From positions 1 to 64,000 of the forward strand of contig JAUNGB010000009.1 in assembly GCA_030524715.1 (NCBI GenBank): DNA of 64,000 bases, written 5' to 3'. Position 1 is the first letter of the stretch. Every line of letters starts with the position of its first letter. The position numbers and the translations under genes were made by a program. Below are positions 7,054 through 21,841 of this stretch, in pieces. The notes beneath the pieces were generated by a model that saw only the letters and a program-made list of their open reading frames with translations, searched no databases and was not told the DNA's origin. The DNA is from Eubacteriales bacterium. Lineage in GTDB: Bacteria > Bacillota > Clostridia > Lachnospirales > Lachnospiraceae.

Positions 7054-7121
7054 AATAAAAAGAAAAATGAAATAAAGAAAAGAATAAACATAGAAAGAAA
7101 GCTGTTTGAAAAGAAGGAAAT

Positions 7122-7190
7122 ACAAGTCGCGCGGCGGCCTGCGTTCATGAGCATGAAGTAAAGCAGAATGCGGACGAACGCTTTATAAAA
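7122..7190. repeat. Family A interspersed repeat, copy 2
   Basis: Core GCCTGCGTTCATGAGCATG followed by AAGTAAAGCAGAATG and an arm ending GAACG that can pair with CGTTC, then a T-rich CTTTAT. It lies between the nucleoside permease and punA and might act as a partial terminator. Confidence 0.7.
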
Positions 7191-7208
7191 GATATACAAA
7201 GGAAACCA

Positions 7209-7251
7209 ATAAAAAGTGGTAAAAGAAAATTATAAAAAGTGGTAAAAGAAA
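7209..7251 (+). repeat. Tandem 20-bp duplication upstream of punA
   Basis: The unit ATAAAAAGTGGTAAAAGAAA occurs at 7209-7228 and again at 7232-7251, identical, with period 23. The second copy runs into the AAAGGAAG ribosome site of punA, so each unit can present a near ribosome-site sequence. Confidence 0.8.
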
Positions 7252-7263
7252 GGAAGTAAAAAT

Positions 7264-8085: not shown

Positions 8086-8090
8086 GAACT

Positions 8091-9281
8091 ATGAAGAAAT
8101 ATAAGAGAGTGTTTTTGATCGTAATGGATTCCCTTGGTGTTGGAGCGCTTCCCGATGCGGCTGATTACGGAGACGCCGGAACAGATACCCTGGGGCATAT
8201 ATCGGAATCTGTAAAAGAATTTCATATCCCGAACCTGCAAAAGCTTGGGATGGCAAATCTTCATCCTCTTGTGCAGGTGGATCCTGTGGACAGCCCGAAA
8301 GGATATTTTACCAGATTAAAAGAGGCAAGCTCCGGAAAGGATACCATGACAGGACACTGGGAGATGATGGGGCTTCATATTACGAAACCTTTCAAGACAT
8401 TTACGGAGAATGGATTTCCCAAAGAGCTTCTGGATGAGCTTTCCGCAAGAACCGGCCGCGTGATTATCGGAAATAAGAGCGCCAGCGGCACGGAGATCCT
8501 GGAAGAGCTTGCGGAGGAAGAAATTGCCACAGGACATATGATCGTATATACCTCCGCGGACTCTGTTCTCCAGATCTGCGGAAACGAAGAAACCTTTGGT
8601 CTGGATGAATTGTACCGCTGCTGTGAGATCGCAAGAGAAATCACCATGAAGGATGAGTGGAAGGTCGGCCGTGTAATTGCAAGACCTTATATCGGAAAGA
8701 AAAAGGGTGAATTTAAGCGGACAAGCAACCGTCATGATTATGCGCTGAAGCCATACGGACAGACGGCGTTGAACGCTTTAAAGGATGCCGGGCTGGATGT
8801 GATCTCTGTTGGTAAGATCTTTGATATTTTTGACGGAGAGGGCCTTACGGAATCCAACAAATCCAAAAGCTCCGTACACGGCATGGAGCAGACCATTGAA
8901 ATTGCAAAGAGGGATTTTACAGGGCTTTGTTTTGTAAATCTGGTTGATTTTGACGCTCTTTGGGGGCATCGTCGCGACCCGCAGGGCTATGCGCAGGAAA
9001 TTGAAAAATTTGACGTGAAATTAGGCGGGCTTCTTGAGCTTTTGCAGAAGGACGACCTTCTGATTATCACAGCCGATCATGGAAATGACCCCACCCATAC
9101 AGGAACGGATCATACACGTGAGCACGTGCCGTTTATCGCATATTCTCCGTCAATGGAGGGCAGCGGTAAGCTGGAGGGAATGGAAACCTTTGCAGTGATC
9201 GGAGCGACGATCGCGGACAATTTTGAGGTTCCAATGCCGGAAGGAACCATCGGATACTCCATTCTTAAAAAAATAGTTTAA
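8091..9281 (+). CDS. deoB: Phosphopentomutase
   Basis: A protein of 396 aa of the alkaline phosphatase superfamily. It interconverts (deoxy)ribose-1-phosphate and the 5-phosphate. The metal and phosphate motifs are visible: [12 protein letters not shown] near the N-terminus, the GTDTLGH threonine region and [18 protein letters not shown] near the C-terminus. It is the last gene of the nucleoside salvage cluster. Its last codons and terminator are duplicated 12,480 bp downstream, at the far edge of the agr island. Confidence 0.95.
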
Positions 9282-9361
9282 CGGCGAAAGATTGGCGGAA
9301 TTAATTGATGCAGCCCTGGCGGTAGCCAGGGCTGCGTGCCTTTTCTATTTTCTTTTATATT
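9268..9361. repeat. Left 94-bp direct repeat flanking the agr island
   Basis: This segment contains the end of deoB (codons for KKIV and the stop), the hairpin terminator and, on the minus strand, a YKRK-stop end like that of the ATPase gene at 21825. A copy with four base differences lies at 21748-21841. All four differences are transitions and the right copy has A or T at each. Confidence 0.9.
9310..9346 (+). terminator. Rho-independent terminator after deoB
   Basis: Arms GCAGCCCTGGC (9310-9320) and GCCAGGGCTGC (9325-9335) form a perfect 11-bp stem with loop GGTA, followed by a T-rich tract. It can also serve as the end of a convergent transcript. Confidence 0.9.
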
Positions 9362-9393
9362 ATAATGAATTTTTCTGATTATGCAATTAGTGC

Positions 9394-9422
9394 TTGCTAA
9401 TGAAGATATTTTCTGATAACAT
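9394..9422 (+). promoter_or_regulatory. Possible promoter of the agrA/agrC-like pair
   Basis: TTGCTA (9394-9399), 17 bp, then TAACAT (9417-9422), about 35 bp before the agrA-like ATG. The boxes are weak. The paired direct repeats seen at the three other island promoters are absent here, so this pair may be expressed independently of the peptide signal. Confidence 0.35.
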
Positions 9423-9457
9423 ACTGAAAAACTTTAAGTAGTGGGGAGGGAAAAACA

Positions 9458-10183
9458 ATGCATGTCATTATATGTGACGATGAGAAAATTACATGTGCGG
9501 AATTGGAAAGGATATTAACAGAATATTCTTCTGAACGAGGAGTTAAATTACAGACAGATGTTTTCTTCTCAGGGGATGCACTAATTGATTATTTGTATAA
9601 AGAGGAAGCTCCGGATATTCTTTTTTTAGATATTGAACTGCCGGGAGTCAATGGAGTAGTTGTTGGCGATTATGTCAGAAGGATACTGGAAAATGAGCAG
9701 ATATTTATTGTTTATATCTCTTCCAAAGAGCAGTATGCACTACAGCTTTTCAAGAACCGGCCGTTCGATTTTCTGGTGAAACCATTAAATGCGGAAAAGA
9801 TATTCCGTGTACTTGATAATATTTACCGGATCGTCGGAAAAAGTAATTGCGATTTTGAGTATCAGAATAAAGGGATTACGTATCGGGTACAGTATAGGGA
9901 TATTCTTTACTTCCAAAGTATCGGCAGGAAGATAAATATTGTACTGAGGCAGGAAACAAAGGGCTTTTATGGGAAGCTGACAGATGTGGAAGCAAAGCTT
10001 CCAAAATACTTGTTCCTAAACATTCATAAATCATATCTGATCAATTTTAATTATGTGAAAGAATATACGTATGAGTGGGTAAAAATGGTTAATGGGGATA
10101 TTTTGAATATAAGTAAAGCAAACAGAGCAGAAGTACGTAGGAAAATATTGGAGCGGGAAGCAAATGAACTTAGAAATTACTGA
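9458..10183 (+). CDS. LytTR response regulator, AgrA-like
   Basis: A protein of 241 aa. Residues 1-120 are a receiver domain with the acidic pair Asp7/Asp8, the phospho-acceptor Asp58 in LFLDIELPG and a conserved lysine in FLVKPLN. Residues about 135-240 are a LytTR DNA-binding domain (YRVQYRDILYFQS, FLNIHKSYLINF). RBS GGGGAGGG. It overlaps the kinase gene by 20 bp, as in agr-type pairs. The likely targets are the paired repeats upstream of 11586, 15380 and 17118; that link is inference. Confidence 0.9.
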   Translation: MHVIICDDEKITCAELERILTEYSSERGVKLQTDVFFSGDALIDYLYKEEAPDILFLDIELPGVNGVVVGDYVRRILENEQIFIVYISSKEQYALQLFKNRPFDFLVKPLNAEKIFRVLDNIYRIVGKSNCDFEYQNKGITYRVQYRDILYFQSIGRKINIVLRQETKGFYGKLTDVEAKLPKYLFLNIHKSYLINFNYVKEYTYEWVKMVNGDILNISKANRAEVRRKILEREANELRNY

Positions 10184-11438
10184 TTTATTACTTGGATTGC
10201 TGGCAAATGGCGTACGGTTTTATGCAATAAAACGTTTTATAGATATTTTTTTGTCAAGAGATGAGTGTCGATGGAAGCATATATGGGTACTGTATGTGAT
10301 CGCTTGTATTTGGACAAGCCTTATATACTGGCTGTTCATGTCGCCTACACTTAATATTATTTCAAATCTGATTGGATTTTTATTGTTGGTTTTACCGTAT
10401 AGGGTGAAGCTTTCGAGAAAGCTGTTGGTTGCGTTCATGATTTACGTTGTAAATCTTTTGGTAGACAGTATCGTAGTAATTTCATTCACGAAATATATTG
10501 TAGGGGAACCGGTAAAACAGATATATGAATGCGTAACGAGTCTGGTAATATTATTAATTGCAATTTTGTTAGAACGTACTATTCTGGCAGAGAGGGATAT
10601 TAATTTACCGATGTTTTACAGGATTGCCCTTTGTCTGGTTCCCGTTATTAGCATTGCCTGCATTTATTATATGGTTATGACTGCGATCGATCTGAAGATG
10701 ACAGTAGTTGTTGTTGCTGCCAGCGTACTGCTTATAAATATATTGGATTTTTATTTGTACAACTCTCTTGTACAGTTTTGTTCTGCCCGCATGGAAAAGA
10801 AAATGTTCGAGCAAATGGTAGAAGTATATGCATACCAGCTCGATGTAGTTAGAGAGTCACAGGAGAGAGTGGTTGCATTGAGGCATGATATGAAGCATCA
10901 TATTATTGAACTGTCCTCTATGATCAATGAAAATGAGAATCCGGAAATGATGAAATATTTACGTGATATGGGGAAGTTTATGTTGAATCCTGAAGAGCAT
11001 GTTTCAACGGGAAATAAGGAGATTGACGGGGTACTGAATTATATGCTCCAAAAGGCGGACGCAGTTCTGTCACATGTAGATATAAAGATTAATGTACCGG
11101 AAAAGATTTGCTGGACAGATTTTAATATTTGTGTGATTCTCGGAAATCTGGTAGACAACGCGATCCGTGAGGCAAGTAAATCAAAAGAGAAGTATCTGGA
11201 AATAGATATTCAATCAAAACAGGGGATTATGTTAATCTTTGTAGAGAATAGTTATTCCGGTGAAATTGTAGAAGCCGATAATAAATTTAGAAGTTCACAA
11301 AAGGAGCTCGCAATTCACGGCATTGGACTTGAAAATGTAAAGAAGGTTGTTCAGGCAAATGGGGGAGAAATGAACATAGATTACGCGGATAACAGGTTTA
11401 AGGTACAGGTACTTTTATATTTATCGAACATCAAATAA
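10164..11438 (+). CDS. GHKL sensor histidine kinase, AgrC-like
   Basis: A protein of 424 aa. The first ~205 residues hold about six membrane segments, as expected of an AgrC-type peptide sensor. Then come a coiled stretch, a phospho-acceptor region ALRHDMKHH and a GHKL ATPase domain (ILGNLVDNAIREA, then HGIGLENVKKVV). It should detect the cyclic peptide made from agrD by AgrB and phosphorylate the overlapping LytTR regulator. A hairpin terminator follows, so the pair forms its own transcript. Confidence 0.88.
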   Translation: MNLEITDLLLGLLANGVRFYAIKRFIDIFLSRDECRWKHIWVLYVIACIWTSLIYWLFMSPTLNIISNLIGFLLLVLPYRVKLSRKLLVAFMIYVVNLLVDSIVVISFTKYIVGEPVKQIYECVTSLVILLIAILLERTILAERDINLPMFYRIALCLVPVISIACIYYMVMTAIDLKMTVVVVAASVLLINILDFYLYNSLVQFCSARMEKKMFEQMVEVYAYQLDVVRESQERVVALRHDMKHHIIELSSMINENENPEMMKYLRDMGKFMLNPEEHVSTGNKEIDGVLNYMLQKADAVLSHVDIKINVPEKICWTDFNICVILGNLVDNAIREASKSKEKYLEIDIQSKQGIMLIFVENSYSGEIVEADNKFRSSQKELAIHGIGLENVKKVVQANGGEMNIDYADNRFKVQVLLYLSNIK

Positions 11439-11450
11439 ATGTCTGCGACA

Positions 11451-11477
11451 GGAGGCCGGGAAAGGCTTCCTTTTTTA
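11451..11477 (+). terminator. Terminator after the agrC-like gene
   Basis: GGAGGCC (11451-11457) pairs with GGCTTCC (11464-11470) with one G-U pair, followed by seven bases that are almost all T. A related hairpin lies at 15241, after agrB. Confidence 0.7.
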
Positions 11478-11489
11478 TTCTAATGTCTA

Positions 11490-11554
11490 ATTTTATCAAA
11501 ATCGTGGTCCATTTTTTACAAGTGGGAAATTTCCGGAAAATAATGTGATATGAT
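11490..11554 (+). promoter_or_regulatory. Island promoter P1 with paired LytTR-like boxes
   Basis: ATTTTATCAAAA (11490-11501) and ATTTTTTACAAG (11511-11522) are direct repeats 21 bp apart, and TGATATGAT gives an extended -10 (TATGAT at 11549-11554). There is no good -35 box, as in activator-dependent promoters. The layout, with 38 bp from the second repeat to the -10, is exactly conserved at P2 and P3. Confidence 0.7.
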
Positions 11555-11585
11555 GCGGCTATCAAATGAAAAGGAGGCAAAAGAT

Positions 11586-11678
11586 ATGGGCAAAAAAATG
11601 TCTGGGTGCTGTAGGAAGATAATTGGAAATTTGGCTAAGAAAGTGGCGGAGAGGGATGCTCTGCCTATCAGGGGATGA
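11586..11678 (+). pseudogene. agrD-like gene lacking the signal and C-terminal part
   Basis: The ATG at 11586 follows AAGGAGG and encodes the amphipathic N-terminus MGKKMSGCCRKIIGNLAKKV and AERDA, nearly identical to the intact agrD at 17118. At the point where the NTSCPFLG core should begin, the sequence jumps into the lipoprotein leader (CTCTGCCTATCAGGGGATG), giving a 30-aa product with no cyclisation region. It looks like a deletion junction between agrD and the lipoprotein gene. Confidence 0.8.
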
Positions 11679-11682
11679 AAGT

Positions 11683-12795
11683 ATGAAAGGAATACGTCGA
11701 TATCTGATAGCAGTTTTATGCGCTGTAGTTTTGTTTACAGGATGCGGAAAAAAGAACATGGGCGGGGAAACTTCGAACGAGATTGTAAATATAGAAAATG
11801 AGGAAGCCAGTAATATTGAAGAGGAAGGTTTTTTTCCGGCTTCTTACACGGGTGGTTCAGATATAGTAAAGTTTGATTGTACACTGGAAGTCCCTGCGGA
11901 GTTTGATCCTAAGAATTTTTATCTTCCGGAGATAACGGGGATGCAATATATAGATGGAGATGCGGTGTATAGAAATTATGTGGAGGGAGAGGAAATCAAG
12001 GAGACATATAATTATCCATCGGAAAAGGAAGGCGTGCCAGATGATAATGTTTATATATTTAATGATGATAGGACTGTTTCCGTAAGTGGTGTGGATGGAT
12101 TTGGTTATTATGATCCGGAAGTGAGCAGATATCGTCAGGTAATGCGTGCAACAGAACGTGGAGCATCTCAGGAAGATTTCGAATTTGGTACAGGTGAAAG
12201 CTGCGTTGAACAGGTAAAAGAGGCTCTGAAAAACATCTCCTATCCGGTGGATGAGTTTGAGTTTTCATGGTTTTCGCTTAGCGGGGAAGAGCATGAAAAG
12301 CTGGAGCAGGAGGCGCTTCGAAATGGAGTTATCGGAGAAGAAAACCTGCAAGGCGACTGGACAGGTAAGGATGAATATGAAATTTATGCCTGGCAGATTT
12401 ATGATGGACTTCCGGTATTTCCGCAATGGATGACAACCTCATTAACAAGGGCAGTGGAATCTTACCAGAAAGCTCAGGTGTCTGCTGTATTCACCTCAAA
12501 TGGGATGGTTAATTTGGATGCTGACCCACCATATATATTTGAGAAAACGGACAAAACCGCTGATTTTTTGTCCTTTTCGGAAATAGCGAAAGCCGTAGAA
12601 GAGCGGTATAAAAAAATACTTACGGATTCTACTTATACGGTAAACAGGGCGAAATTAGCGGTAAGAGTTTATATTGATGAAAACCAGAAGTATAAAGCAG
12701 AACCTGTCTGGTATTTTGAAGTGGCAGATAATAATGGAGGAACAGAAATTCTATTATTTAATGCGGAATCCGGAAAAGAAATTTTTCTCAATTAG
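11683..12795 (+). CDS. Repeated island lipoprotein, copy 1
   Basis: A protein of 370 aa with lipobox LFTGC (Cys21), so membrane-anchored and facing outward, then an acidic linker and a soluble domain with FDCTLEVPAEFDPKNFY and DGFGYYDPEVSRYRQVM. I do not recognise the family. The start at 11683 is homologous in all four copies. The C-terminal half is identical in DNA to copy 4 and the N-terminal half differs, so the gene is a mosaic. Expressed from P1. A role as receptor, immunity protein or partner of the small secreted proteins is possible but unproven. Confidence 0.85.
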   Translation: MKGIRRYLIAVLCAVVLFTGCGKKNMGGETSNEIVNIENEEASNIEEEGFFPASYTGGSDIVKFDCTLEVPAEFDPKNFYLPEITGMQYIDGDAVYRNYVEGEEIKETYNYPSEKEGVPDDNVYIFNDDRTVSVSGVDGFGYYDPEVSRYRQVMRATERGASQEDFEFGTGESCVEQVKEALKNISYPVDEFEFSWFSLSGEEHEKLEQEALRNGVIGEENLQGDWTGKDEYEIYAWQIYDGLPVFPQWMTTSLTRAVESYQKAQVSAVFTSNGMVNLDADPPYIFEKTDKTADFLSFSEIAKAVEERYKKILTDSTYTVNRAKLAVRVYIDENQKYKAEPVWYFEVADNNGGTEILLFNAESGKEIFLN

Positions 12796-12818
12796 TTGTC
12801 TGAAGAATAAGAAGAAGC

Positions 12819-12919
12819 TGGCAAAGAAAGTGGCGGAGAGGGATGCCAACACCAGTTGTCCGTTCTTGGGCTATCAGCCGAAGCTGCCGAAATCCGTAAA
12901 GAAACTGAGAAAATTTTAA
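12819..12919 (+). pseudogene. agrD-like 3' fragment without start
   Basis: This segment encodes AKKVAERDANTSCPFLGYQP and the rest of the agrD C-terminus to a stop, matching the intact agrD at 17118. The 5' half is gone and replaced by the end of lipoprotein copy 1 plus a short linker. The signal core is intact but no well-placed ribosome site or start codon precedes it. It is the complement of the truncation at 11586. Confidence 0.8.
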
Positions 12920-12941
12920 AACTGAAAGGAGAATTGAGAAA

Positions 12942-12992
12942 ATGAAAGGATTAAAAAAAGCATTTTGCGTGTTTGGATATAGAACAGCTTAA
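12942..12992 (+). pseudogene. Stub of the small secreted protein gene
   Basis: After GAAAGGAGAATTGAG the ATG at 12942 encodes MKGLKKAFCVFG, identical to the start of the gene at 17287. It then joins the downstream leader (TATAGAACAGCTTAAG), giving a 16-aa peptide. The body of the gene has been deleted. The joined leader is the one found just before lipoprotein copy 4. Confidence 0.85.
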
Positions 12993-13018
12993 GTAAGATA
13001 CAGAATTAGAATATAAGA

Positions 13019-13058
13019 GGCAGAGGTAGTCCCGAAAACAAAAGAGGCTATCTCTGCC
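13019..13058 (+). promoter_or_regulatory. Hairpin upstream of lipoprotein copy 2
   Basis: GGCAGAGGTAGTC (13019-13031) pairs with GGCTATCTCTGCC (13046-13058), with two G-U pairs. It ends about 6 bp before the AGAGGATG ribosome site. There is no T-tract, so it is more likely a processing, stability or translation element than a terminator. The counterpart before copy 3 shows compensatory changes. Confidence 0.65.
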
Positions 13059-13075
13059 TATCAGAGGATGAAAGT

Positions 13076-14188
13076 ATGAAAGGAATACGTCGATATCTGA
13101 TAGCAGCTTTATGCGCTGTGATTTTGTTTACAGGATGCGGGAAAAAGAACACGGACGGTGAAGCTCCGAGCGAGATTGTAAATATGGAAAATGAGTCAGC
13201 TGGTGATATTGCAGAGGAAGAACTTTTTCCGGCTTCTTACATGGGTGGTTCAGAGATAGTAAAGTTTGATTGTACGCTGGAAGTTCCGGCAGAGTTTGAT
13301 CCCAAGAATTTTTATCTTCCGGAGATAACAGGGATGCAATATATAGATAGCGATGCGGTGTATAGAAATTATGTGGAAGGAGAGGAAATCAAGGAGACAT
13401 ATAATTATCCATCGGAAAAGGAAGGCGTGCCAGATGATAATGTTTATATATTTAATGATGATAGGACTGTTTCCGTAAGTGGTGTGGATGGATTTGGTTA
13501 TTATGATCCGGAAGTGAGCAGATATCGTCAGGTAATGCGTGCAACAGAACGTGGAGCATCTCAGGAAGATTTCGAATTTGGTACAGGTGAAAGCTGCGTT
13601 GAACAGGTAAAAGAGGCTCTGAAAAACATCTCCTATCCGGTGGATGAGTTTGAGTTTTCATGGTTTTCGCTTAGCGGGGAAGAGCATGAAAAGCTGGAGC
13701 AGGAGGCACTTCAAAATGGAGTTATCGGAGAAGAAAACCTGCAAGGCGACTGGACAGGCAAGGATGAATATGAAATTTATGTTTGGCAGATTTATGATGG
13801 ACTTCCGGTATTTCCGCAATGGATGACAACTGCATTAACAAGGGCAGTGGAATCTTACCAGAAAGCCCCGGTGTCTGCTGTATTCACCTCAAATGGAATG
13901 GTTAGTTTGCATGGTGACCCACCATATATATTTGAGAAAACGGACAAAACCGCTGATTTTTTGGCTTTTTCAGAAATAGCGAAAGCCGTAGAAGAGCGGT
14001 ATGAAAAAATACTTACAGATTCTACTTATACGGTAAACAGGGCGAAATTAGCGGTAAGAGTTTATATTGATGAAAACCAGAAGTACAAAGCAGAACTTGT
14101 CTGGTATTTTGAAGTTGCAGACAATAATGGAGGCACAGAAATCCTGTTATTTAATGCGGAATCCGGCACAGAAATTTTTCTTAATTAG
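13076..14188 (+). CDS. Repeated island lipoprotein, copy 2
   Basis: A protein of 370 aa with the same lipobox (LFTGC, Cys21) and soluble domain as copies 1, 3 and 4. At least 310 bp in the middle, about 13,395-13,705, is identical in DNA in all four copies, and most of the C-terminal half matches copy 3. The N-terminal linker after the lipobox is the most divergent of the set. It has no copy of the P1-type promoter directly upstream, so it is probably read from P1. Confidence 0.85.
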   Translation: MKGIRRYLIAALCAVILFTGCGKKNTDGEAPSEIVNMENESAGDIAEEELFPASYMGGSEIVKFDCTLEVPAEFDPKNFYLPEITGMQYIDSDAVYRNYVEGEEIKETYNYPSEKEGVPDDNVYIFNDDRTVSVSGVDGFGYYDPEVSRYRQVMRATERGASQEDFEFGTGESCVEQVKEALKNISYPVDEFEFSWFSLSGEEHEKLEQEALQNGVIGEENLQGDWTGKDEYEIYVWQIYDGLPVFPQWMTTALTRAVESYQKAPVSAVFTSNGMVSLHGDPPYIFEKTDKTADFLAFSEIAKAVEERYEKILTDSTYTVNRAKLAVRVYIDENQKYKAELVWYFEVADNNGGTEILLFNAESGTEIFLN

Positions 14189-14235
14189 TTATCTGAAGAT
14201 TAGTGGTTATGTGATAAGAAAACAGAGGAGAAGGT

Positions 14236-14613
14236 ATGAGAAGAGAACGAAAAAAGATATTTTGTTTATTGAGTATTACGATTGGATTATTGCTGTATCC
14301 AATTGCTGCAAATGCAGATACATATGCGTTTAATGTTACAACTCCGGCAAGCGAGTATTCCTACAGCGTAAAGAAAACAAATTCTGAACAAAAGTTTTAT
14401 GTAAGAGGCGTTTCTTTTAGTAAATCGGGGAAATTATACTGTCGCTCTGAAAGTTGCGCTAATAGGAATGTTTACGGTCAGACGGCAATTTCTGCTGAAA
14501 ATCCGGTTTCATCAGGAGAATATGTAAATTATGCGGCTCCAAATGGATTATATAGATTATCTTTTTATTCATCTGTGAGTGGACTTCAAGTAGTCGGGTA
14601 TTATACACCGTAA
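14236..14613 (+). CDS. Small secreted protein, divergent paralogue 1
   Basis: A protein of 125 aa: a signal peptide with probable cleavage after ANA (residue 27) and a mature part of about 98 residues rich in Ser, Tyr and Thr that ends VVGYYTP. It shares YSYSVKKTNSEQKFYVRG, SFSKSGKLYC and VSGLQV with the proteins at 15380 and 17287 but is clearly more diverged. RBS GAGGAGAAGG. It lies just upstream of agrB. The family is not recognised; a bacteriocin-like or signalling role is a guess from size and setting. Confidence 0.75.
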   Translation: MRRERKKIFCLLSITIGLLLYPIAANADTYAFNVTTPASEYSYSVKKTNSEQKFYVRGVSFSKSGKLYCRSESCANRNVYGQTAISAENPVSSGEYVNYAAPNGLYRLSFYSSVSGLQVVGYYTP

Positions 14614-14655
14614 AGTATAAGCATATTTGGATAAACTGGAAAAGGAAATTTACAG

Positions 14656-15240
14656 ATGGGACGATTAGAAGAGAAATGGCTGTATGGATTTGCAGAAAAA
14701 ATCAGTGCAAATAAAGACGAATATGAAGTAGTTCAATATGGACTTCACCAGAGTGTTTTGATAATGGTAAATTTTTTATCTATATTGATTTGCGGGGCAT
14801 TCTGGGGAGAATTATTGTTTAGTTTGCTTTTATTTATGGTGATTTTTTTCCTGCGCCCATATGCAGGAGGCTATCATGCGGATACGGAGCTTAGATGCTA
14901 TATGATATCTGTAGGGGCTATGAATGCTGCTATGTTTTTAAGAAAATCTGTGACAATATCAATAACTATTGAAATGGTGATGTATATAGGCGCTGTTTTA
15001 TATATTTGGATAAATGCACCTTTGGAAAATCCTCAAAATGAATTGGAAGAAATTGAAATAGAGGAATATTCCCGGAAAGCAAATCAGATTTTACTGGTAT
15101 GCAGTTTATTAACAGGACTAAGTCTTTATTTTAAAAACAGACTTTTTCTGGATGCCAACTATTACGGGATAATAATAGTTGCAACCGCAGTTTTAACCGG
15201 AAAATGGAAATATAAAAAGAAATCCTTGCCTACTATATAG
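14656..15240 (+). CDS. agrB: AgrB-type autoinducer-processing membrane protease
   Basis: A protein of 194 aa, the usual AgrB length, with about five to six membrane segments. The signature FLRPYAGGYHADTELRCY gives His74 and Cys81 at the seven-residue spacing of the AgrB catalytic pair. AgrB removes the C-terminus of AgrD and forms the thiolactone ring. It is the only intact agrB in the window; a relic lies at 18907. A hairpin terminator follows, then P2. The intact agrD partner lies 1.9 kb downstream instead of adjacent, which is unusual. Confidence 0.93.
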   Translation: MGRLEEKWLYGFAEKISANKDEYEVVQYGLHQSVLIMVNFLSILICGAFWGELLFSLLLFMVIFFLRPYAGGYHADTELRCYMISVGAMNAAMFLRKSVTISITIEMVMYIGAVLYIWINAPLENPQNELEEIEIEEYSRKANQILLVCSLLTGLSLYFKNRLFLDANYYGIIIVATAVLTGKWKYKKKSLPTI

Positions 15241-15272
15241 AACAGTAGGCTGGGAAAGGCTTCCTGTTTTAT
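15241..15272 (+). terminator. Terminator after agrB
   Basis: AACAG..GGC pairs imperfectly with GGCTTCCTGTT and is followed by a T-rich tract. It is the homologue of the hairpin at 11451; both immediately precede a P-type promoter. Confidence 0.6.
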
Positions 15273-15283
15273 TCTAATGTCTG

Positions 15284-15348
15284 ATTTTATCAAAATTGTG
15301 GTCTGTTTTTTACAAGCGGGAAATTTCCGGAAAATAATGTGGTATGAT
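15284..15348 (+). promoter_or_regulatory. Island promoter P2 with paired LytTR-like boxes
   Basis: ATTTTATCAAAA (15284-15295) and GTTTTTTACAAG (15305-15316), again 21 bp apart, with TGGTATGAT giving the extended -10 (15343-15348). The agrD gene expected next is cleanly missing: the sequence passes from ATCAAAC directly to the ribosome site of the small secreted protein. Confidence 0.7.
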
Positions 15349-15379
15349 GCGTCTATCAAACGAAAGGAGAATTGAGAAA

Positions 15380-15754
15380 ATGAAAGGATTTAAAAAATTG
15401 TTTTGCGTGTTTGGAGCTGCTATGTGTCTGTTAGGGTCAACCGTGACTGCAAGTGCAGATACGATTCGGTTCGATGTTACATGTCCGGGCGATCCGTATT
15501 CTTATACTGTAAGAAAGGCTGACTCAGAACAGAGATTTTACGTGACGGGAACATCATTTAGTAAAAGTGGAAGGCTGTTTTGCACTTCCTATAAAGTTTC
15601 CGATCATAGTGTCAGCGGTTCGACATCGATTACGCCGTCCAGTCCGTCCTCTTCAGGTGTATATGGTAAATACGCGGCGCCAAACTTACTGTATGAGCTG
15701 TATACCACTTCATCTGTAAGTGGATTGAATGTAATTGGACGATATACACCGTGA
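15380..15754 (+). CDS. Small secreted protein, paralogue 2
   Basis: A protein of 124 aa. The signal peptide has a probable cleavage after TASA (residue 26). The mature part starts DTIRFDVTCPGDPYSYTV and ends NVIGRYTP, with a Ser/Thr-rich middle (SSPSSSG) and two cysteines. It is about 85-90% identical by eye to the protein at 17287. The start at 15380 after AAAGGAGA is supported by alignment of all copies. It is the first gene after P2, so should be directly under peptide-signal control if that promoter is. Confidence 0.8.
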   Translation: MKGFKKLFCVFGAAMCLLGSTVTASADTIRFDVTCPGDPYSYTVRKADSEQRFYVTGTSFSKSGRLFCTSYKVSDHSVSGSTSITPSSPSSSGVYGKYAAPNLLYELYTTSSVSGLNVIGRYTP

Positions 15755-15808
15755 GTAAAGTCTAATAATAAAATCTTAAACAATTCGATAAGTAGCTTAA
15801 GTAAGAGA

Positions 15809-15844
15809 CAGAGATAACCGTGAAAGTAAAAGCGGTTATCTCTG
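15809..15844 (+). promoter_or_regulatory. Hairpin upstream of lipoprotein copy 3
   Basis: CAGAGATAACCG (15809-15820) and CGGTTATCTCTG (15833-15844) form a perfect 12-bp stem with a 12-nt loop. Compared with copies 2 and 4 a G-C pair is replaced by A-T and a U-G pair by C-G, so pairing is kept although the bases changed. Confidence 0.75.
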
Positions 15845-15863
15845 CCTATCAGGGGATGAAAAT

Positions 15864-16976
15864 ATGAGAGGAATATGTCGATATTTGATAGCAGCTTTAT
15901 GCGCTGTAGTTTTGTTTACAGGATGTGGAAAAAAGAACACGAGCGGGGAAATTTCGAACGAAACTTTAAATATAGAAAATGAGTCAGCCAGTGATACTAC
16001 AGAGGAAGAGTTTTTTCCGGCTTCTTACACGGGTGGTTCAGATATAGTAAAGTTTGATTGTACGCTGGAAGTTCCGGCAGAGTTTGATCCCAAGAATTTT
16101 TATCTTCCGGAGATAACAGGGATGCAATATATAGATAGCGATGCGGTGTATAGAAATTATGTGGAAGGAGAGGAAATCAAGGAGACATATAATTATCCAT
16201 CGGAAAAGGAAGGCGTGCCAGATGATAATGTTTATATATTTAATGATGATAGGACTGTTTCCGTAAGTGGTGTGGATGGATTTGGTTATTATGATCCGGA
16301 AGTGAGCAGATATCGTCAGGTAATGCGTGCAACAGAACGTGGAGCATCTCAGGAAGATTTCGAATTTGGTACAGGTGAAAGCTGCGTTGAACAGGTAAAA
16401 GAGGCTCTGAAAAACATCTCCTATCCGGTGGATGAGTTTGAGTTTTCATGGTTTTCGCTTAGCGGGGAAGAGCATGAAAAGCTGGAGCAGGAGGCACTTC
16501 AAAATGGAGTTATCGGAGAAGAAAACCTGCAAGGCGACTGGACAGGCAAGGATGAATATGAAATTTATGTTTGGCAGATTTATGATGGACTTCCGGTATT
16601 TCCGCAATGGATGACAACTGCATTAACAAGGGCAGTGGAATCTTACCAGAAAGCCCCGGTGTCTGCTGTATTCACCTCAAATGGAATGGTTAGTTTGCAT
16701 GGTGACCCACCATATATATTTGAGAAAACGGACAAAACCGCTGATTTTTTGGCTTTTTCAGAAATAGCGAAAGCCGTAGAAGAGCGGTATGAAAAAATAC
16801 TTACAGATTCTACTTATACGGTAAACAGGGCGAAATTAGCGGTAAGAGTTTATATTAATGAAAACCAGAAGTACGAAGCAGAACCTGTTTGGTATTTTGA
16901 AGTGACAGATAATAATAGTGGTACAGAAATCCTATTATTTAATGCAGAATCTGGAAAAGAAATTTTTCTCAATTAG
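15864..16976 (+). CDS. Repeated island lipoprotein, copy 3
   Basis: A protein of 370 aa with lipobox LFTGC (Cys21). The N-terminal part is nearly the same as copy 4, the middle is identical in all copies and much of the C-terminal half matches copy 2; the last ~45 residues carry private changes (YINENQKYEAEP, VTDNNSG). This patchwork points to gene conversion. Probably co-transcribed with the small secreted protein at 15380 from P2. Confidence 0.85.
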   Translation: MRGICRYLIAALCAVVLFTGCGKKNTSGEISNETLNIENESASDTTEEEFFPASYTGGSDIVKFDCTLEVPAEFDPKNFYLPEITGMQYIDSDAVYRNYVEGEEIKETYNYPSEKEGVPDDNVYIFNDDRTVSVSGVDGFGYYDPEVSRYRQVMRATERGASQEDFEFGTGESCVEQVKEALKNISYPVDEFEFSWFSLSGEEHEKLEQEALQNGVIGEENLQGDWTGKDEYEIYVWQIYDGLPVFPQWMTTALTRAVESYQKAPVSAVFTSNGMVSLHGDPPYIFEKTDKTADFLAFSEIAKAVEERYEKILTDSTYTVNRAKLAVRVYINENQKYEAEPVWYFEVTDNNSGTEILLFNAESGKEIFLN

Positions 16977-17021
16977 TTGTCTGAAGAATAAGAAGAAGCT
17001 TTCTTTTTTATTTAATGTCTA

Positions 17022-17086
17022 ATTTTATCAAAATCGTGGTCTATTTTTTACAAGTGGGAAATTTACGGAAAATAATGTGATATGAT
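17022..17086 (+). promoter_or_regulatory. Island promoter P3 with paired LytTR-like boxes
   Basis: ATTTTATCAAAA (17022-17033) and ATTTTTTACAAG (17043-17054), spaced 21 bp, with TGATATGAT (TATGAT at 17081-17086). It drives the only complete unit: agrD, small secreted protein, lipoprotein, agrB relic and the ABC genes. Confidence 0.72.
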
Positions 17087-17117
17087 GCGACTATCAAACA
17101 AAAAGGAGGCAAAAGAT

Positions 17118-17264
17118 ATGGGCAAAAAAATGTCTGAGTGCTGTAGGAAGGTAATTGGCAATTTGGTTAAGAAAGTGGCGGAGAGGGATGCCAACACCAG
17201 TTGTCCGTTCTTAGGCTATCAGCCGAAGCTGCCGAAATCCGTGAAGAAACTGAGAAAATTTTAA
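17118..17264 (+). CDS. agrD: AgrD-type cyclic peptide autoinducer precursor
   Basis: A protein of 48 aa starting at 17118 after AAGGAGG. It has the three AgrD parts: a basic amphipathic N-terminus (MGKKMSECCRKVIGNLVKKV), the core ANTSCPFLG and a charged C-terminus (YQPKLPKSVKKLRKF). By analogy with clostridial AgrD, AgrB would cut before YQPKLP and join Cys29 to Gly33 in a five-residue thiolactone (Cys-Pro-Phe-Leu-Gly). The ring is predicted from family pattern only; Tyr34 could be the last residue instead. Confidence 0.88.
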   Translation: MGKKMSECCRKVIGNLVKKVAERDANTSCPFLGYQPKLPKSVKKLRKF

Positions 17265-17286
17265 AACCGAAAGGAGAATTGGGAAA

Positions 17287-17661
17287 ATGAAAGGATTAAA
17301 AAAAGCGTTTTGCGTGTTTGGAACTGCTATGTGCCTGTTAGGGTCAACCGTGACTGCAAGTGCAGATACGATTCAGTTTAATGTTACATATCCGGGGGAC
17401 CAGTATTCTTATACTGTAAGAAAAGCTGACTCGGAACAGAGATTTTATGTAACGGGAACATCATTTAGTAGAACAGGAAGACTGTATTGTACTTCCCATA
17501 AAGTTTCCGATCACAGTGTCAGCGGCTCTACATCCATTACACCGTCTAGCCCGTCCTCTTCAGGGGCATATGGTAAATATGCAAAAGCTAAAGAGCAATA
17601 TGAGCTGTACACTACTGCATCAGTAAGCGGCTTGAATGTAATTGGACGATATACACCGTGA
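17287..17661 (+). CDS. Small secreted protein, paralogue 3
   Basis: A protein of 124 aa with the same signal peptide (cleavage after TASA, residue 26) and the same ~98-residue mature part as the protein at 15380; differences cluster in the second half (AKAKEQYELYTTASVSG). RBS AAAGGAGAATTG. It sits between agrD and lipoprotein copy 4. No cell-wall anchor or transmembrane segment follows the signal, so it should be released. Confidence 0.8.
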   Translation: MKGLKKAFCVFGTAMCLLGSTVTASADTIQFNVTYPGDQYSYTVRKADSEQRFYVTGTSFSRTGRLYCTSHKVSDHSVSGSTSITPSSPSSSGAYGKYAKAKEQYELYTTASVSGLNVIGRYTP

Positions 17662-17731
17662 GTAAAGTGTGATAAAGGCCAGTAATAATTTATAGAACAG
17701 CTTAAGTAAGATACAGAATTAGAATATAAGA

Positions 17732-17771
17732 GGCAGAGGCAGTCCCGAAAACAAAAGAGGCTATCTCTGCC
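17732..17771 (+). promoter_or_regulatory. Hairpin upstream of lipoprotein copy 4
   Basis: GGCAGAGGCAGTC (17732-17744) opposite GGCTATCTCTGCC (17759-17771); nearly the same as the copy 2 hairpin but with one mismatch in the middle of the stem. It ends just before TATCAGGGGATG, which carries the ribosome site. Confidence 0.6.
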
Positions 17772-17788
17772 TATCAGGGGATGAAAAT

Positions 17789-18901
17789 ATGAGAGGAATA
17801 CGTCGATATTTGATAGCAGCTTTATGTGCTGTAGTTTTGTTTACAGGATGTGGAAAAAAGAACACGAGCGGGCAAATTTCGAACGAAACTGTAAATATAG
17901 AAAATGAGTCAGCCAGTGATACTACAGAGGAAGAGTTTTTTCCGGCTTCTTACACGGGTGGTTCAGATATAGTAAAGTTTGATTGTACGCTGGAAGTTCC
18001 GGCAGAGTTTGATCCCAAGAATTTTTATCTTCCGGAGATAACAGGGATGCAATATATAGATAGCGATGCGGTGTATAGAAATTATGTGGAAGGAGAGGAA
18101 ATCAAGGAGACATATAATTATCCATCGGAAAAGGAAGGCGTGCCAGATGATAATGTTTATATATTTAATGATGATAGGACTGTTTCCGTAAGTGGTGTGG
18201 ATGGATTTGGTTATTATGATCCGGAAGTGAGCAGATATCGTCAGGTAATGCGTGCAACAGAACGTGGAGCATCTCAGGAAGATTTCGAATTTGGTACAGG
18301 TGAAAGCTGCGTTGAACAGGTAAAAGAGGCTCTGAAAAACATCTCCTATCCGGTGGATGAGTTTGAGTTTTCATGGTTTTCGCTTAGCGGGGAAGAGCAT
18401 GAAAAGCTGGAGCAGGAGGCGCTTCGAAATGGAGTTATCGGAGAAGAAAACCTGCAAGGCGACTGGACAGGTAAGGATGAATATGAAATTTATGCCTGGC
18501 AGATTTATGATGGACTTCCGGTATTTCCGCAATGGATGACAACCTCATTAACAAGGGCAGTGGAATCTTACCAGAAAGCTCAGGTGTCTGCTGTATTCAC
18601 CTCAAATGGGATGGTTAATTTGGATGCTGACCCACCATATATATTTGAGAAAACGGACAAAACCGCTGATTTTTTGTCCTTTTCGGAAATAGCGAAAGCC
18701 GTAGAAGAGCGGTATAAAAAAATACTTACGGATTCTACTTATACGGTAAACAGGGCGAAATTAGCGGTAAGAGTTTATATTGATGAAAACCAGAAGTATA
18801 AAGCAGAACCTGTCTGGTATTTTGAAGTGGCAGATAATAATGGAGGAACAGAAATTCTATTATTTAATGCGGAATCCGGAAAAGAAATTTTTCTCAATTA
18901 G
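17789..18901 (+). CDS. Repeated island lipoprotein, copy 4
   Basis: A protein of 370 aa, lipobox LFTGC (Cys21). From about residue 105 to the end its DNA is identical to copy 1, while its first 50 residues are close to copy 3. All four copies are intact, which suggests selection for dose or variety even while agrD and agrB duplicates decayed. Downstream are the agrB relic and the ABC genes on the same strand with no clear terminator. Confidence 0.85.
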   Translation: MRGIRRYLIAALCAVVLFTGCGKKNTSGQISNETVNIENESASDTTEEEFFPASYTGGSDIVKFDCTLEVPAEFDPKNFYLPEITGMQYIDSDAVYRNYVEGEEIKETYNYPSEKEGVPDDNVYIFNDDRTVSVSGVDGFGYYDPEVSRYRQVMRATERGASQEDFEFGTGESCVEQVKEALKNISYPVDEFEFSWFSLSGEEHEKLEQEALRNGVIGEENLQGDWTGKDEYEIYAWQIYDGLPVFPQWMTTSLTRAVESYQKAQVSAVFTSNGMVNLDADPPYIFEKTDKTADFLSFSEIAKAVEERYKKILTDSTYTVNRAKLAVRVYIDENQKYKAEPVWYFEVADNNGGTEILLFNAESGKEIFLN

Positions 18902-18906
18902 TTGTT

Positions 18907-19000
18907 AATGTATAAGCGTAAGGATTTATTCGGATAAACTGGAAAGAAAATTTGCAGATGGGATAATTAAGAAAAGGAATTCTTGACTACTATATAGAAT
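18907..19000 (+). pseudogene. agrB relic with internal deletion
   Basis: The segment aligns with the region around agrB: the leader ATAAACTGGA.AG.AAATTT.CAGATGGGA matches the start (14614-14670), and TTG.CTACTATATAGAA matches the end (15220-15245). Almost the whole coding region is missing and the start now reads ATG GGA TAA. It shows that an ancestral unit also carried agrB after the lipoprotein gene. Confidence 0.7.
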
Positions 19001-19016
19001 AGGAGAGGGTGTTCTG

Positions 19017-19775
19017 TTGAAGATATTGAGAAATTATGTTAAATCAGATTTAAGACAACTTGTAAAAAGTTACACATGGCTTATCGGAATGATCGGAGTA
19101 GCTGTTTTTCTTTTTTTTGCGTTAGAAACGCAGGGATTTTATAATAATAACGTTGTGTCAACTTATACATTTGCAACAATGATGACCGGCGCTTTAATTA
19201 CATATGTATTCTGTGCATTTCCTTATGCAACGACATTCAGTGAAGAATTGGAGCATCAGTATGCTCGCTATTGTATAATACGGGGAAATTTAAAATGGTA
19301 CGTATTGTCAAAGTCATTAGTGATTTATTTTAGTTCTATTGTTGTAATGCTCGGAGGAAGCTTTCTCTTTTTAATTTTATGCCGTACTCAGGTTCCCTGG
19401 ATGGACTGGGAGGTGGGAAATGACTACGGATCTTTATTGGCAGAATGTTATGGGGATATACTGCGGGCTAATAAGCCAATAGTGTATTGTATGCTGTATG
19501 CATTACATACGGGACTTCTTGCGGGAATGTTGTCTTTAGTTGCTGCTTTTTGTTCTATTCATATTTCTAACAGAGTTCTTATCTTAGTTATGCCGGCTTT
19601 TGTATTCCGTATATTGGCATCCCTGAATATTGCGGGGTATAACATATACATTTTCTATTGCTTTAAGATTTTTGAAAAAAACTGGCAAAATTTTTTGTTT
19701 ATTTTTTTGCTGTCAGCGATTCCGTCATTACTTTTAACAATAGGAATTTATCAGAGTATGAAGAGAAAACTATAG
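19017..19775 (+). CDS. ABC-2 type membrane protein of the island
   Basis: A protein of 252 aa with about six hydrophobic segments and a short cytoplasmic N-terminus. The start is TTG at 19017 after AGGAGAGGG. The layout and size suit ABC-2 permeases of bacteriocin export or self-protection systems, and the ATPase lies two genes downstream. No close family is recognised by eye. It lies 17 bp before a second membrane protein, forming one operon. Confidence 0.7.
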   Translation: MKILRNYVKSDLRQLVKSYTWLIGMIGVAVFLFFALETQGFYNNNVVSTYTFATMMTGALITYVFCAFPYATTFSEELEHQYARYCIIRGNLKWYVLSKSLVIYFSSIVVMLGGSFLFLILCRTQVPWMDWEVGNDYGSLLAECYGDILRANKPIVYCMLYALHTGLLAGMLSLVAAFCSIHISNRVLILVMPAFVFRILASLNIAGYNIYIFYCFKIFEKNWQNFLFIFLLSAIPSLLLTIGIYQSMKRKL

Positions 19776-19792
19776 GGGGACAGGGGACAGAT

Positions 19793-20665
19793 ATGACTCA
19801 ATACATAAATAAAACCTCAATGGTGAAAATTTTTAATAATAAAGTGGGAACGTTTTTGCTGATCATTTTAGTAACAGCATGGAGCTATGATCAGCCCTAT
19901 TTACGGTTTGTACAGGAAAAACAATATCCAATCTCCTGGTGTATATTTCCATTTTATCTGATTTCCTTCGGATTTTTGTCGCTTTTTTATTTTGGTATTA
20001 TTTATATTAATTCCGATGTTCCATTTATGCAGCATGCAAATATGTATCAGGTAATTCGAACAGGGAGAAAAAAATGGGCAGCCGGACAGATCGGAGGGAT
20101 TTTTATACGGTCTTTTGTCATAACACTTTTGTCTGCTGTTATTGCAATCTTACCATTTATGGGCAAGCTGGAGCTGACGAATGAGTGGGGTAAGGTTGTC
20201 TATAGTCTTGCCTCAGAACGAATTCAGTTTTCTGAATTTATTCTGGAGAATAATCTCGAATTTCGTTTTAACTATGAGATATTGGAAGAATTTACACCGA
20301 TGCAGCTTATGGTAATCACAATACTGCTCTGCACATTTATATGTACCTTTTTGGGAATGGTAATGTTTGTATTAAGCCTTTTTGCGGGACGTGTAGTTGC
20401 CGTTTCCGGAGCTTTAGTTTTTGTAGTGCTGTTATTCTTTGTACAAAATGCTCCTGAAGTATATAAGCGGCCTCTTGCACATTTTGTCCCTACATATTGG
20501 GGAGAAGTGGCGCTTATTGCTACGCCTGGAAGCGCCGGTTATTATCGGCTGCCATCCCTTACATATATGTTTTCTTTTCTGATCATCGCTATTCTGGCGA
20601 TGTCAGCTATAGTGCTTTTTCGTGTCAAACATATTGAATTTAATTGGGAGAATGAAGATGCATGA
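19793..20665 (+). CDS. Multi-span membrane protein, probable second ABC permease subunit
   Basis: A protein of 290 aa with about six hydrophobic segments and a large soluble loop (about residues 125-170, SEFILENNLEFRFNYEILEE). With the previous gene it would form the membrane part of an ABC-2 type transporter whose ATPase follows at 20740. The family is not recognised. Export or immunity for the island peptides is the simplest reading of the context but is inference. Confidence 0.65.
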   Translation: MTQYINKTSMVKIFNNKVGTFLLIILVTAWSYDQPYLRFVQEKQYPISWCIFPFYLISFGFLSLFYFGIIYINSDVPFMQHANMYQVIRTGRKKWAAGQIGGIFIRSFVITLLSAVIAILPFMGKLELTNEWGKVVYSLASERIQFSEFILENNLEFRFNYEILEEFTPMQLMVITILLCTFICTFLGMVMFVLSLFAGRVVAVSGALVFVVLLFFVQNAPEVYKRPLAHFVPTYWGEVALIATPGSAGYYRLPSLTYMFSFLIIAILAMSAIVLFRVKHIEFNWENEDA

Positions 20666-20747
20666 CAGGAATAGAAAAGTGGTAGAAATAGAAAATATAA
20701 ATAATAATGCAGTAAAATGTGAGGAAGGAGAGGTATTTTATGATTGA
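20658..20747 (+). CDS. Possible small coupled ORF of 29 aa
   Basis: ATG at 20658, inside the end of the permease gene, after GGGAG at good distance. It encodes MHDRNRKVVEIENINNNAVK and nine more residues and ends 8 bp into the ATPase gene. The overlaps on both sides suggest translational coupling; it may be only a coupling leader. No similarity recognised. Confidence 0.35.
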   Translation: MHDRNRKVVEIENINNNAVKCEEGEVFYD

Positions 20748-21417
20748 AAATATTCCGGTTATTGAGGTTGATCATGTATATAAGACATTTAAAGGCAATG
20801 AGGTATTAAAGGATATTTCAATGCGTTGTGAAGGTAAGCATATTTATGGCATTGTCGGTCATAATGGTTCGGGAAAGACGGTATTGTTTAAATGTATCTG
20901 CGGTTTTTTTGATTGTACGCAGGGGAGTATAAAAATTAACGGAAAAACAATGGGAAAAGAAATTGATATGCTGACGAATGCGGGAATTATTATTGAAGAA
21001 CCGGGATTTATGCGCAGATGGAGCGCGTATCATAATCTGGAATTTCTTTATACCATACGAAATAAAAAAGATAAAAAGTATTTATATTCCGTTTTAGAGA
21101 AAGTTGGTTTAGATCCTGCTCAAAAGAGGGCTGTTGGAAAATATTCTCTTGGAATGCGGCAGCGCTATGCTCTGGCGCAGGCTATTATGGAAAATCCGGA
21201 TATTCTGATTCTGGACGAGCCAATGAATGGGCTGGATAAAGATGGCGTTAATGAAATGCGGGAATTGTTTCTTCAGATGAAGTCAGAGGGAAAGTTGATT
21301 CTTTTAGCCAGTCATAATAAAGAGGATATCGAAGTGCTTTGTGATGAAGTGTATGAGATGGAAAACGGCGTTTTGAGTAAACTGAGAGGCAAAAAGGCAT
21401 GGGATATGGAAGAATGA
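20740..21417 (+). CDS. ABC transporter ATPase of the island
   Basis: A protein of 225 aa with Walker A GHNGSGKT, signature YSLGMRQRYALAQAI and Walker B ILILDEPMNGLDKDGV, and a switch histidine in LLASHN. It is of the short single-domain type that partners ABC-2 permeases (BcrA/NatA-like). The ATG at 20740 after GGAAGGAGAGG is preferred over GTG at 20719. Its stop overlaps the next gene by 4 bp (ATGA). Confidence 0.9.
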   Translation: MIENIPVIEVDHVYKTFKGNEVLKDISMRCEGKHIYGIVGHNGSGKTVLFKCICGFFDCTQGSIKINGKTMGKEIDMLTNAGIIIEEPGFMRRWSAYHNLEFLYTIRNKKDKKYLYSVLEKVGLDPAQKRAVGKYSLGMRQRYALAQAIMENPDILILDEPMNGLDKDGVNEMRELFLQMKSEGKLILLASHNKEDIEVLCDEVYEMENGVLSKLRGKKAWDMEE

Positions 21418-21743
21418 TTCCGAATGGTCGGATGGAAGAAATCCGGAGATATAATCAGAGGATTGAGGAAACATCAGATGAGTTAGAGAAGGAAATCTAC
21501 AGGAAGGCTAAAAGCTTTAGGGTTCCTTATGAAAAACTGGATATGATATCAAGAGACAGTGCGGAAAAGATATATATTTTAAATAAAAAAAGGAAGAAAA
21601 AGCGGTTCATTAAAATTATGCTGGGGGTCATACCTTTATTATCCTTGATATTATTTTGCGTATTATCTCTAAAAAAGGCAGATAGTATTCGGAGTATGAC
21701 CAAGCAAAATCAGGCTTGGACTGTAAAAAACAGAAAAAAATGA
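21414..21743 (+). CDS. Small single-span membrane protein after the ABC ATPase
   Basis: A protein of 109 aa. A charged helical N-terminal part (about residues 1-65, likely coiled coil, RIEETSDELEKEIYRKAKSF) is followed by a Lys/Arg-rich patch (NKKRKKKRF), one membrane segment (IMLGVIPLLSLILFCVLSL) and a short basic tail. The start at 21414 overlaps the ATPase stop as ATGA. It is the last gene of the island and ends 4 bp before the right direct repeat. Function unknown. Confidence 0.65.
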   Translation: MIPNGRMEEIRRYNQRIEETSDELEKEIYRKAKSFRVPYEKLDMISRDSAEKIYILNKKRKKKRFIKIMLGVIPLLSLILFCVLSLKKADSIRSMTKQNQAWTVKNRKK

Positions 21744-21747
21744 GTTG

Positions 21748-21841
21748 AAAAAATAGTTTAACGGCAAAAGATTGGCAGAATTAATTGATGCAGCTCTGGC
21801 AGTAGCCAGGGCTGCGTGCCTTTTCTATTTTCTTTTATATT
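21748..21841. repeat. Right 94-bp direct repeat flanking the agr island
   Basis: The counterpart of 9268-9361, exactly 12,480 bp away and differing at four positions. It carries codons for KKIV and a stop (a deoB 3' tail without deoB), the hairpin terminator and, on the minus strand, the last codons of the ATPase gene at 21825. Confidence 0.9.
21790..21826 (+). terminator. Duplicated terminator at the right island edge
   Basis: GCAGCTCTGGC and GCCAGGGCTGC form a stem with one G-U pair, followed by CCTTTTC. It ends transcription out of the island and faces the convergent gene at 21825-23408. Confidence 0.85.

Follow-up and report, generated by a model that had tools for sequence, protein, structure and literature searches.

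Genomic islands are commonly recognised through their integrase, and searches of this kind would miss the island which we describe here. A precedent for the excision of an island without an integrase of its own is the microcin H47 island of Escherichia coli, according to passages in two reports (PMC3191183, PMC5426353). For islands that do enter by integrase, one account states in a relevant passage that the direct repeats of tyrosine integrases are generally 8-60 bp long and those of serine integrases very short (PMC5704250). The present island lies within 64,000 nucleotides of the genome of a gut bacterium of the Lachnospiraceae, which we take to be a Blautia (Eubacteriales bacterium, assembly GCA_030524715.1, contig JAUNGB010000009.1, positions 1 to 64,000; hereafter the window), between deoB and a convergent AAA-ATPase gene. 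It carries genes of an Agr quorum-sensing circuit, and instead of an integrase a duplicated gene junction marks its boundaries. A homologous island in another Blautia genome, G037, bears a similar boundary mark. We thus deal with a well-marked island of known type which has a cargo cassette undescribed in our searches and one informative second case (G037).

A duplicated gene junction at both edges

The edges are formed by the following features.

8091..9281, plus strand: deoB (phosphopentomutase), left host gene (Pfam Metalloenzyme 1.6e-48; 3' ends of relatives); last 17 bp inside the left repeat
9265..9361, no strand: left junction repeat, 97 bp, with the deoB end, a hairpin (9308-9337) and ATPase-end sequence
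21745..21841, no strand: right junction repeat, 97 bp, with a hairpin (21788-21817)
21825..23408, minus strand: AAA-ATPase with PD-(D/E)XK domain, right host gene (Pfam AAA-ATPase_like 2.6e-27, PDDEXK_9 5.5e-10); last 17 bp inside the right repeat

The two copies of the direct repeat are identical at 92 of 97 positions. This length tolerates one extra mismatch relative to a 94-bp core, which starts at 9268 and again at 21748, 12,480 bp further on, and agrees at 90 of 94 positions. The original prediction had described such a 94-bp block with four transitions between the copies, and we find the same: all four core differences are transitions, with G or C in the left copy and A or T in the right copy. 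When the window is compared with itself (E 1e-5, at least 40 bp), the pair is retrieved with a BLAST E of 4.9e-37, and outside the island's own gene repeats the comparison gives two further pairs with identities of 84.6 and 86%. A dispersed repeat (84-86% identity, one orientation) is seen at 2351-2400, 7122-7186 and 27097-27161. A search across the whole genome (5.28 Mb) located the junction repeat at its two places only.

As a background we searched control loci for direct repeats of 80-300 bp with at least 92% identity and a distance of 5-21 kb. Among the 51 deoB loci of at least 18 kb (out of 80 deoB loci; 1,070,957 bases) a single locus has a comparable repeat, which is a dispersed palindromic repeat, and there is none in 23 further control loci (459,467 bases). 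The junction repeat has no match in the plasmid collection, nor in the viral contigs when searched as an exact 31-base pattern.

Each copy includes the final 17 bp of deoB, a hairpin of 13 pairs whose tail is T-rich, and the final 17 bp of the ATPase gene. The minimum free energies of the plus-strand hairpins are -34.2 and -30.4 kcal/mol for the two copies (z about -3). In the right copy a G-U pair preserves the plus-strand stem; the minus-strand stem is mismatched. The deoB product ends with ...SILKKIV, similar to the ends in relatives, and the ATPase with ...CIIEKYKRK, where homologues finish with CIIEKYEK, CIIERYHKE and similar. Judged by these termini, both gene ends in the repeat look native. 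The hairpin and the gene ends of relatives thus bear out the earlier view that the block comprises the end of deoB, a terminator and the end of the convergent ATPase gene. Because both gene ends appear native, a deoB-hairpin-ATPase junction would have existed beforehand, and this single junction would have been duplicated around the block. It is very likely, in our view, that about 97 bp of the junction were duplicated in this way.

The 12,383 bp between the repeats have a GC content of 38.1%, compared to 47.7% in the left and 45.7% in the right flank. The native gene ends and this GC step speak for the predicted duplication of a deoB/ATPase junction around an AT-rich block; the part of that prediction that stays without a counterpart is the empty site itself (see below). 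At the right edge the stop codon of the last island gene, orf114, lies one base ahead of the repeat, and the right copy may double as terminator of the island operon.

The source assembly is a draft of 210 contigs with a contamination estimate of 5.02, and the junction could have been wrongly duplicated or joined during assembly; the exact repeats of 813 and 814 bp within the island are indeed beyond short reads alone. Against such an artefact stand the four core differences between the copies, the shortness of 97 bp relative to a read, the lack of any N in the window and the similar architecture in G037, a single-contig genome. We regard an assembly error as hardly credible.

Cargo of the island

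Between the repeats we find the following features, all on the plus strand.

9458..10183, plus strand: response regulator, LytTR type, AgrA-like (Pfam Response_reg 1.2e-13, LytTR 3.9e-16)
10164..11438, plus strand: sensor kinase, GHKL type, AgrC-like, six predicted spans (Pfam HATPase_c_5 3e-21; hydropathy)
11491..11520, plus strand: LytTR-box-like repeat pair, first promoter region (sequence comparison)
11550..11678, plus strand: broken agrD, 5' half (28 bp shared with the 3' half at 12819)
11683..12795, plus strand: lipoprotein LP1 (lipobox LFTGC)
12819..12919, plus strand: broken agrD, 3' half, with peptide core and tail and no start of its own
13076..14188, plus strand: lipoprotein LP2
14236..14613, plus strand: sec1, small secreted protein (alignment)
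14656..15240, plus strand: agrB, family of proteases that process the autoinducing peptide (Pfam AgrB 3.2e-31)
15285..15314, plus strand: LytTR-box-like pair, second promoter region
15344..15754, plus strand: sec2, small secreted protein (alignment)
15864..16976, plus strand: lipoprotein LP3
17023..17052, plus strand: LytTR-box-like pair, third promoter region
17082..17264, plus strand: intact agrD, core NTSCPFLGYQPKLP (NCBIfam TIGR04223 quorum_AgrD 3.7e-12)
17287..17661, plus strand: sec3, small secreted protein, predicted all-beta fold (alignment)
17789..18901, plus strand: lipoprotein LP4
19017..19775, plus strand: TM1, membrane protein, likely partner of the ATP-binding cassette (ABC) protein (conserved order; hydropathy)
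19793..20665, plus strand: TM2, membrane protein, likely ABC partner (conserved order; hydropathy)
20719..21417, plus strand: ABC ATPase (Pfam ABC_tran 1.2e-30; best NCBIfam match galliderm_ABC with 176.4 bits, below the cut-off of 309.75)
21399..21743, plus strand: orf114, small protein, one predicted span

The block thus combines an Agr circuit (regulator, kinase, AgrB, one intact and two broken agrD) with a second secretion unit. The AgrB match is above the family cut-off, the AgrD precursor with its core Cys scores 46.1 bits against a cut-off of 19, and both a GHKL kinase and a LytTR response regulator are present according to Pfam. The AgrA equivalog model NF046049 (quorum-sensing) gives a score of 31.7, far under its cut-off of 400. 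There is no tRNA in the window, and Rfam yields no match at gathering score within 7000-24000.

The three promoter regions resemble each other along 112-195 bp, with 89-94% identity. Each contains two TTTTATCAA / TTTTTTACA-like boxes spaced 22 bp from start to start, and in relatives we see by eye clearer TTTTGACA pairs at the equivalent position. We interpret the pairs as putative LytTR boxes, presumably corresponding to the AgrA box. AgrB would then mature the AgrD peptide, the kinase and the LytTR regulator would respond to it, and the three promoters would drive the secreted all-beta proteins, the surface lipoproteins and the ABC transporter.

The second unit comprises the small secreted proteins, the four lipoproteins, the two membrane proteins and the ABC ATPase. 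The block had been called a self-contained signalling unit. This is apt insofar as an Agr circuit is present, but secreted proteins, lipoproteins and an ABC transporter, an effector cassette, make up most of it. Such a cassette of secreted protein, lipoprotein, two membrane proteins and ABC ATPase recurs in Lachnospiraceae, often without Agr genes; our literature searches returned no description of it. The same genome has further sec, LP, TM1, TM2 and ABC genes at L096 5321-9794 and L097 4123-11539 (contigs C72 and C99), which are not accompanied by a regulator-kinase pair of the type seen in the window.

The secreted proteins have no convincing Pfam match (18 members, best 0.012), and sec1 has no match in NCBIfam. 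One of 18 lipoprotein members matches DUF6034 at 2.4e-4 and five match PepSY weakly (best 0.035). Neither the secreted proteins nor the lipoproteins belong to a curated bacteriocin or immunity family by these searches. The island lipoproteins may have a YycI/YpeB-like fold, as suggested by their likeness in fold to PDB 5coz (EUBREC_2869, titled uncharacterised; sequence identity 14%), YycI, YycH and YpeB. No such lipoprotein was found in the genome-contig collection, the viral contigs, the plasmids or the phages.

Pairwise identities among LP1 to LP4 are 92.4-96.5%; between LP4 and the aligned relatives, identity reaches 48% at most. LP1 and LP4 share an exact tract of 814 bp, LP2 and LP3 one of 813 bp, and the 5' ends of the lipoprotein genes group otherwise. 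This pattern suggests gene conversion and could partly reflect collapse during assembly. The halves of the broken agrD lie on either side of the LP1 gene and have 28 bp in common (11632-11659 and 12819-12846, one mismatch). An agrD split by the LP1 segment resembles a small-scale copy of the pattern at the island boundaries; a tandem duplication followed by deletion could account for it too.

Repeated duplication and deletion within the island, together with the age indicated by the four differences between the junction repeats, might point to a purely local history, in which tandem duplication of a larger segment with the junction and subsequent deletions left two junctions on either side of genes that were already nearby. 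Several deletions would be needed, however, each with its endpoint precisely at a gene end. Both the GC step and the patchy occurrence of the cargo, which is present in 11 of the 64 genomes of the genus (window genome included), favour arrival from outside instead. An ancient local duplication is therefore very unlikely.

Mobile context and related islands

In agreement with the original prediction, we recognised no integrase or transposase in the block, nor any transfer genes, be it among the main open reading frames, by Pfam and NCBIfam families or by profiles. Related islands do have such neighbours. The second island of G037 (G037b) adjoins a MobA/VirD2-type relaxase and NikA/MobC-like genes. 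In G129, which belongs to another genus (L254, contig C20), the agr island lies amid ParA, a large serine recombinase, a RepA_N initiator, an actin-like protein and a MobQ relaxase, so these surroundings are probably a plasmid or an integrative element. The relaxase and replicon neighbours support an arrival of the island as cargo. None of the mobility genes of G037b and G129 was recognised in the window block.

One form of such an arrival is an integrative mobilisable element whose tyrosine or serine integrase acted at the 3' end of deoB and which later lost its integrase and transfer genes, so that only attL and attR were left, as in a cis-mobilizable element (CIME). The target would fit, being the intact 3' end of a housekeeping gene as described for these elements in a passage of PMC5704250, and the relaxase or recombinase genes beside related islands would fit as well. 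On the other hand, 97 bp exceeds the 8-60 bp quoted there for tyrosine integrases and the very short repeats of serine integrases (PMC5704250), and the block contains no recognised integrase remnant. Furthermore, among 79 named deoB loci the deoB 3' region recurs downstream only once, as an 18-bp match, and the G037 case is situated inside a different gene. We consider a remnant of this type possible but doubtful.

Strong regulator-kinase pairs which adjoin an LP gene, or agr genes leading to one, were found in the window, at two places in G037 and at one each in G059, G129, G033 and G025, seven in all. Of the 26 cassette loci tested, three (the window, G037a and G037b) have a flanking direct repeat of at least 75 bp; the longest at any other locus measures 43 bp. 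This test covered 26 of 29 cassette loci (all except G389, G033 and G025) with flanks of at most 8 kb, which are shorter at contig ends and shrink to about 1 kb in G271 and G302; in G059 one of the two sides had only 3.2 kb.

The first island of G037 (G037a) sits inside the remnant of a minus-strand gene with an overlap of 103 bp: on the left side the 3' part of the gene and the 103-bp block are found, on the right side the block and about 45 bp more of the frame. The right block is split by an insertion sequence (IS) with an 8-bp overlap, and the island's left end is made up of a second IS (L090 4669-5848). This second IS has inverted ends CTATAAATGAGC and its immediate flanks do not repeat each other. 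By eye, an intact homologue of 286 amino acids in G054 spans the split region; the G037a gene would thus have been continuous beforehand. The remnant has no match at 0.001 in Pfam or NCBIfam and its G054 homologue has none in Pfam. We rejected the label Rpn nuclease for the split gene, as the remnant matches only DUF6437 weakly (0.0052). The sister genome G058 has flanks of about 96% identity, one block and no island.

G037b, with 238-bp repeats about 20 kb apart, was rejected as a further case: its block occurs in 8 of the 64 genomes of the genus, and comparison with G058 reveals no simple duplicated junction.

Search for an empty site

The comparison collections hold one genome per species, so that they compare species and not strains of one species. 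With deoB and the repeat as query, 51 of 98 genomes (own genome included) gave some match, and the repeat itself was present in the window genome only. As a check, the original prediction had named an empty site in related genomes, with a single copy between deoB and the ATPase gene. At the deoB loci of 29 of the other matching genomes none has this ATPase beside deoB (within about 1.5 kb, less at contig ends), and in none of the 80 named deoB loci is this ATPase convergent with and abutting deoB. One locus (L163) has a distant member of the ATPase family, 25% identical, 0.8 kb downstream and on the same strand as deoB. The ATPase gene and the repeat gave some match in 36 of the 64 genus genomes (own included), and outside the window genome these matches extend into the repeat only to about its ATPase-coding end.

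A second deoB-like gene of the same genome (G000:C95:11374-12530, 73% DNA identity) is a paralogue or contamination. Two genes to the right of the ATPase gene lies a gene for a BrnT-family toxin (24775-25053).

Proposed origin of the island

We suggest, with somewhat more confidence than doubt, that an Agr-controlled secretion island was horizontally acquired into a once-continuous convergent junction of deoB and the AAA-ATPase gene, and that it entered by recombination there. The island would have come as cargo of a mobile vehicle. In the likeliest form, a circular molecule and the chromosome would have recombined at about 95 shared bp. As the block has no recognised recombinase, the agent would have been RecA or an integrase that was lost or acted in trans. 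Neither host gene would be broken by this event. The left hairpin would still terminate deoB, and the right one would do so for the island operon as well as for the ATPase gene. The island could still be deleted or circularised if the two copies recombined.

Several points weigh against this proposal. The empty deoB/ATPase site was not found among the genomes and loci searched, and the event is not recent, as the copies differ at 4 of 94 positions. At 23 of the 26 cassette loci there is no flanking repeat of at least 75 bp in the flank considered. The cargo is thus not tied to the repeats; the occurrence of island genes elsewhere without repeats, which had been named as evidence against the original prediction, does hold for related genes, but it does not contradict an insertion at this locus. 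No match between the repeat blocks of the window and of G037 exceeds 7 bp, which makes one site-specific integrase for both sites unlikely.

The G037 case, moreover, could have been made by IS elements. The right flank of G058 resumes 62 bp beyond the block at TTAAG, and in G037 this sequence follows the right block after 62 bp and also the left block after 1 bp, beside an IS end. We therefore rejected G058 as a clean empty site: the difference in presence of the island is not a clean recombination between the repeats. Its state reflects either a 10,467-bp deletion between two TTAAG or the insertion of a unit with a terminal IS and a 5-bp duplication. The left and right blocks of G037 have three differences each from the block of G058 and four from each other, which dates the duplication to roughly the time when G037 and G058 diverged. 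G037 thus supports the architecture without establishing that both islands entered in the same way.

Overlaps that are close in length (97 and 103 bp) at two unrelated targets, one of them intragenic, would also agree with a repair-type insertion. Here, a break with staggered ends of about 100 bases or template switching would duplicate some 100 bp of the target, and neither homology nor a recombinase would be needed. The 28-bp overlap which likewise flanks the LP1 segment inside agrD points in the same direction, although tandem duplication and subsequent deletion can explain it too. End joining rarely gives duplications this long. There are also only two cases, and that of G037 is blurred by the IS at its left end, the IS in its right copy and TTAAG at both outer ends. 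We judge a repair-type origin unlikely. A bolder generalisation would be that the Blautia family of Agr islands enters unrelated sites free of any recombinase and duplicates about 100 bp (97 here, 103 in G037), with a 28-bp version of the process shuffling agrD and lipoprotein genes; this we hold to be distinctly improbable. If a duplication of about 100 bp is repeatable, it would offer a route by which cargo settles in gut bacteria without a recombinase of its own.

Comparison with known systems

The signalling part resembles AgrBDCA of the Staphylococcus type in having AgrB, AgrD with a Cys core, a GHKL kinase, a LytTR regulator and paired repeats before agrD. Set against the agr gene order of S. 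aureus, regulator and kinase come first here and are followed by scattered agrD and agrB; two extra broken agrD and the likely output genes also lie within the block.

With a CIME, as characterised in part of PMC5704250, the island shares direct repeats by an intact housekeeping 3' end and the lack of integration and transfer genes. It differs in a repeat that exceeds the 8-60 bp given there, and no related integrative element was found at the deoB/ATPase site.

The microcin H47 island differs, according to the passages cited, in its cargo, which is a microcin, where our island has an Agr circuit together with lipoproteins and small secreted proteins, and in its repeats of 148 and 144 bp with 76% identity, compared to 97 bp and 95% here (PMC3191183, PMC5426353). 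Excision and empty sites are reported for it, whereas the present island is known from sequence and its empty deoB/ATPase site was not found. In the same passages the likeness is considerable: the H47 island measures about 13 kb with 12,635 bp between the repeats (12,383 bp here), and both islands have long imperfect direct repeats, their own regulation and secretion genes and no recombinase inside (PMC3191183, PMC5426353). The block between deoB and the ATPase gene is thus best read as an acquired integrase-less island that would resemble the microcin H47 island.

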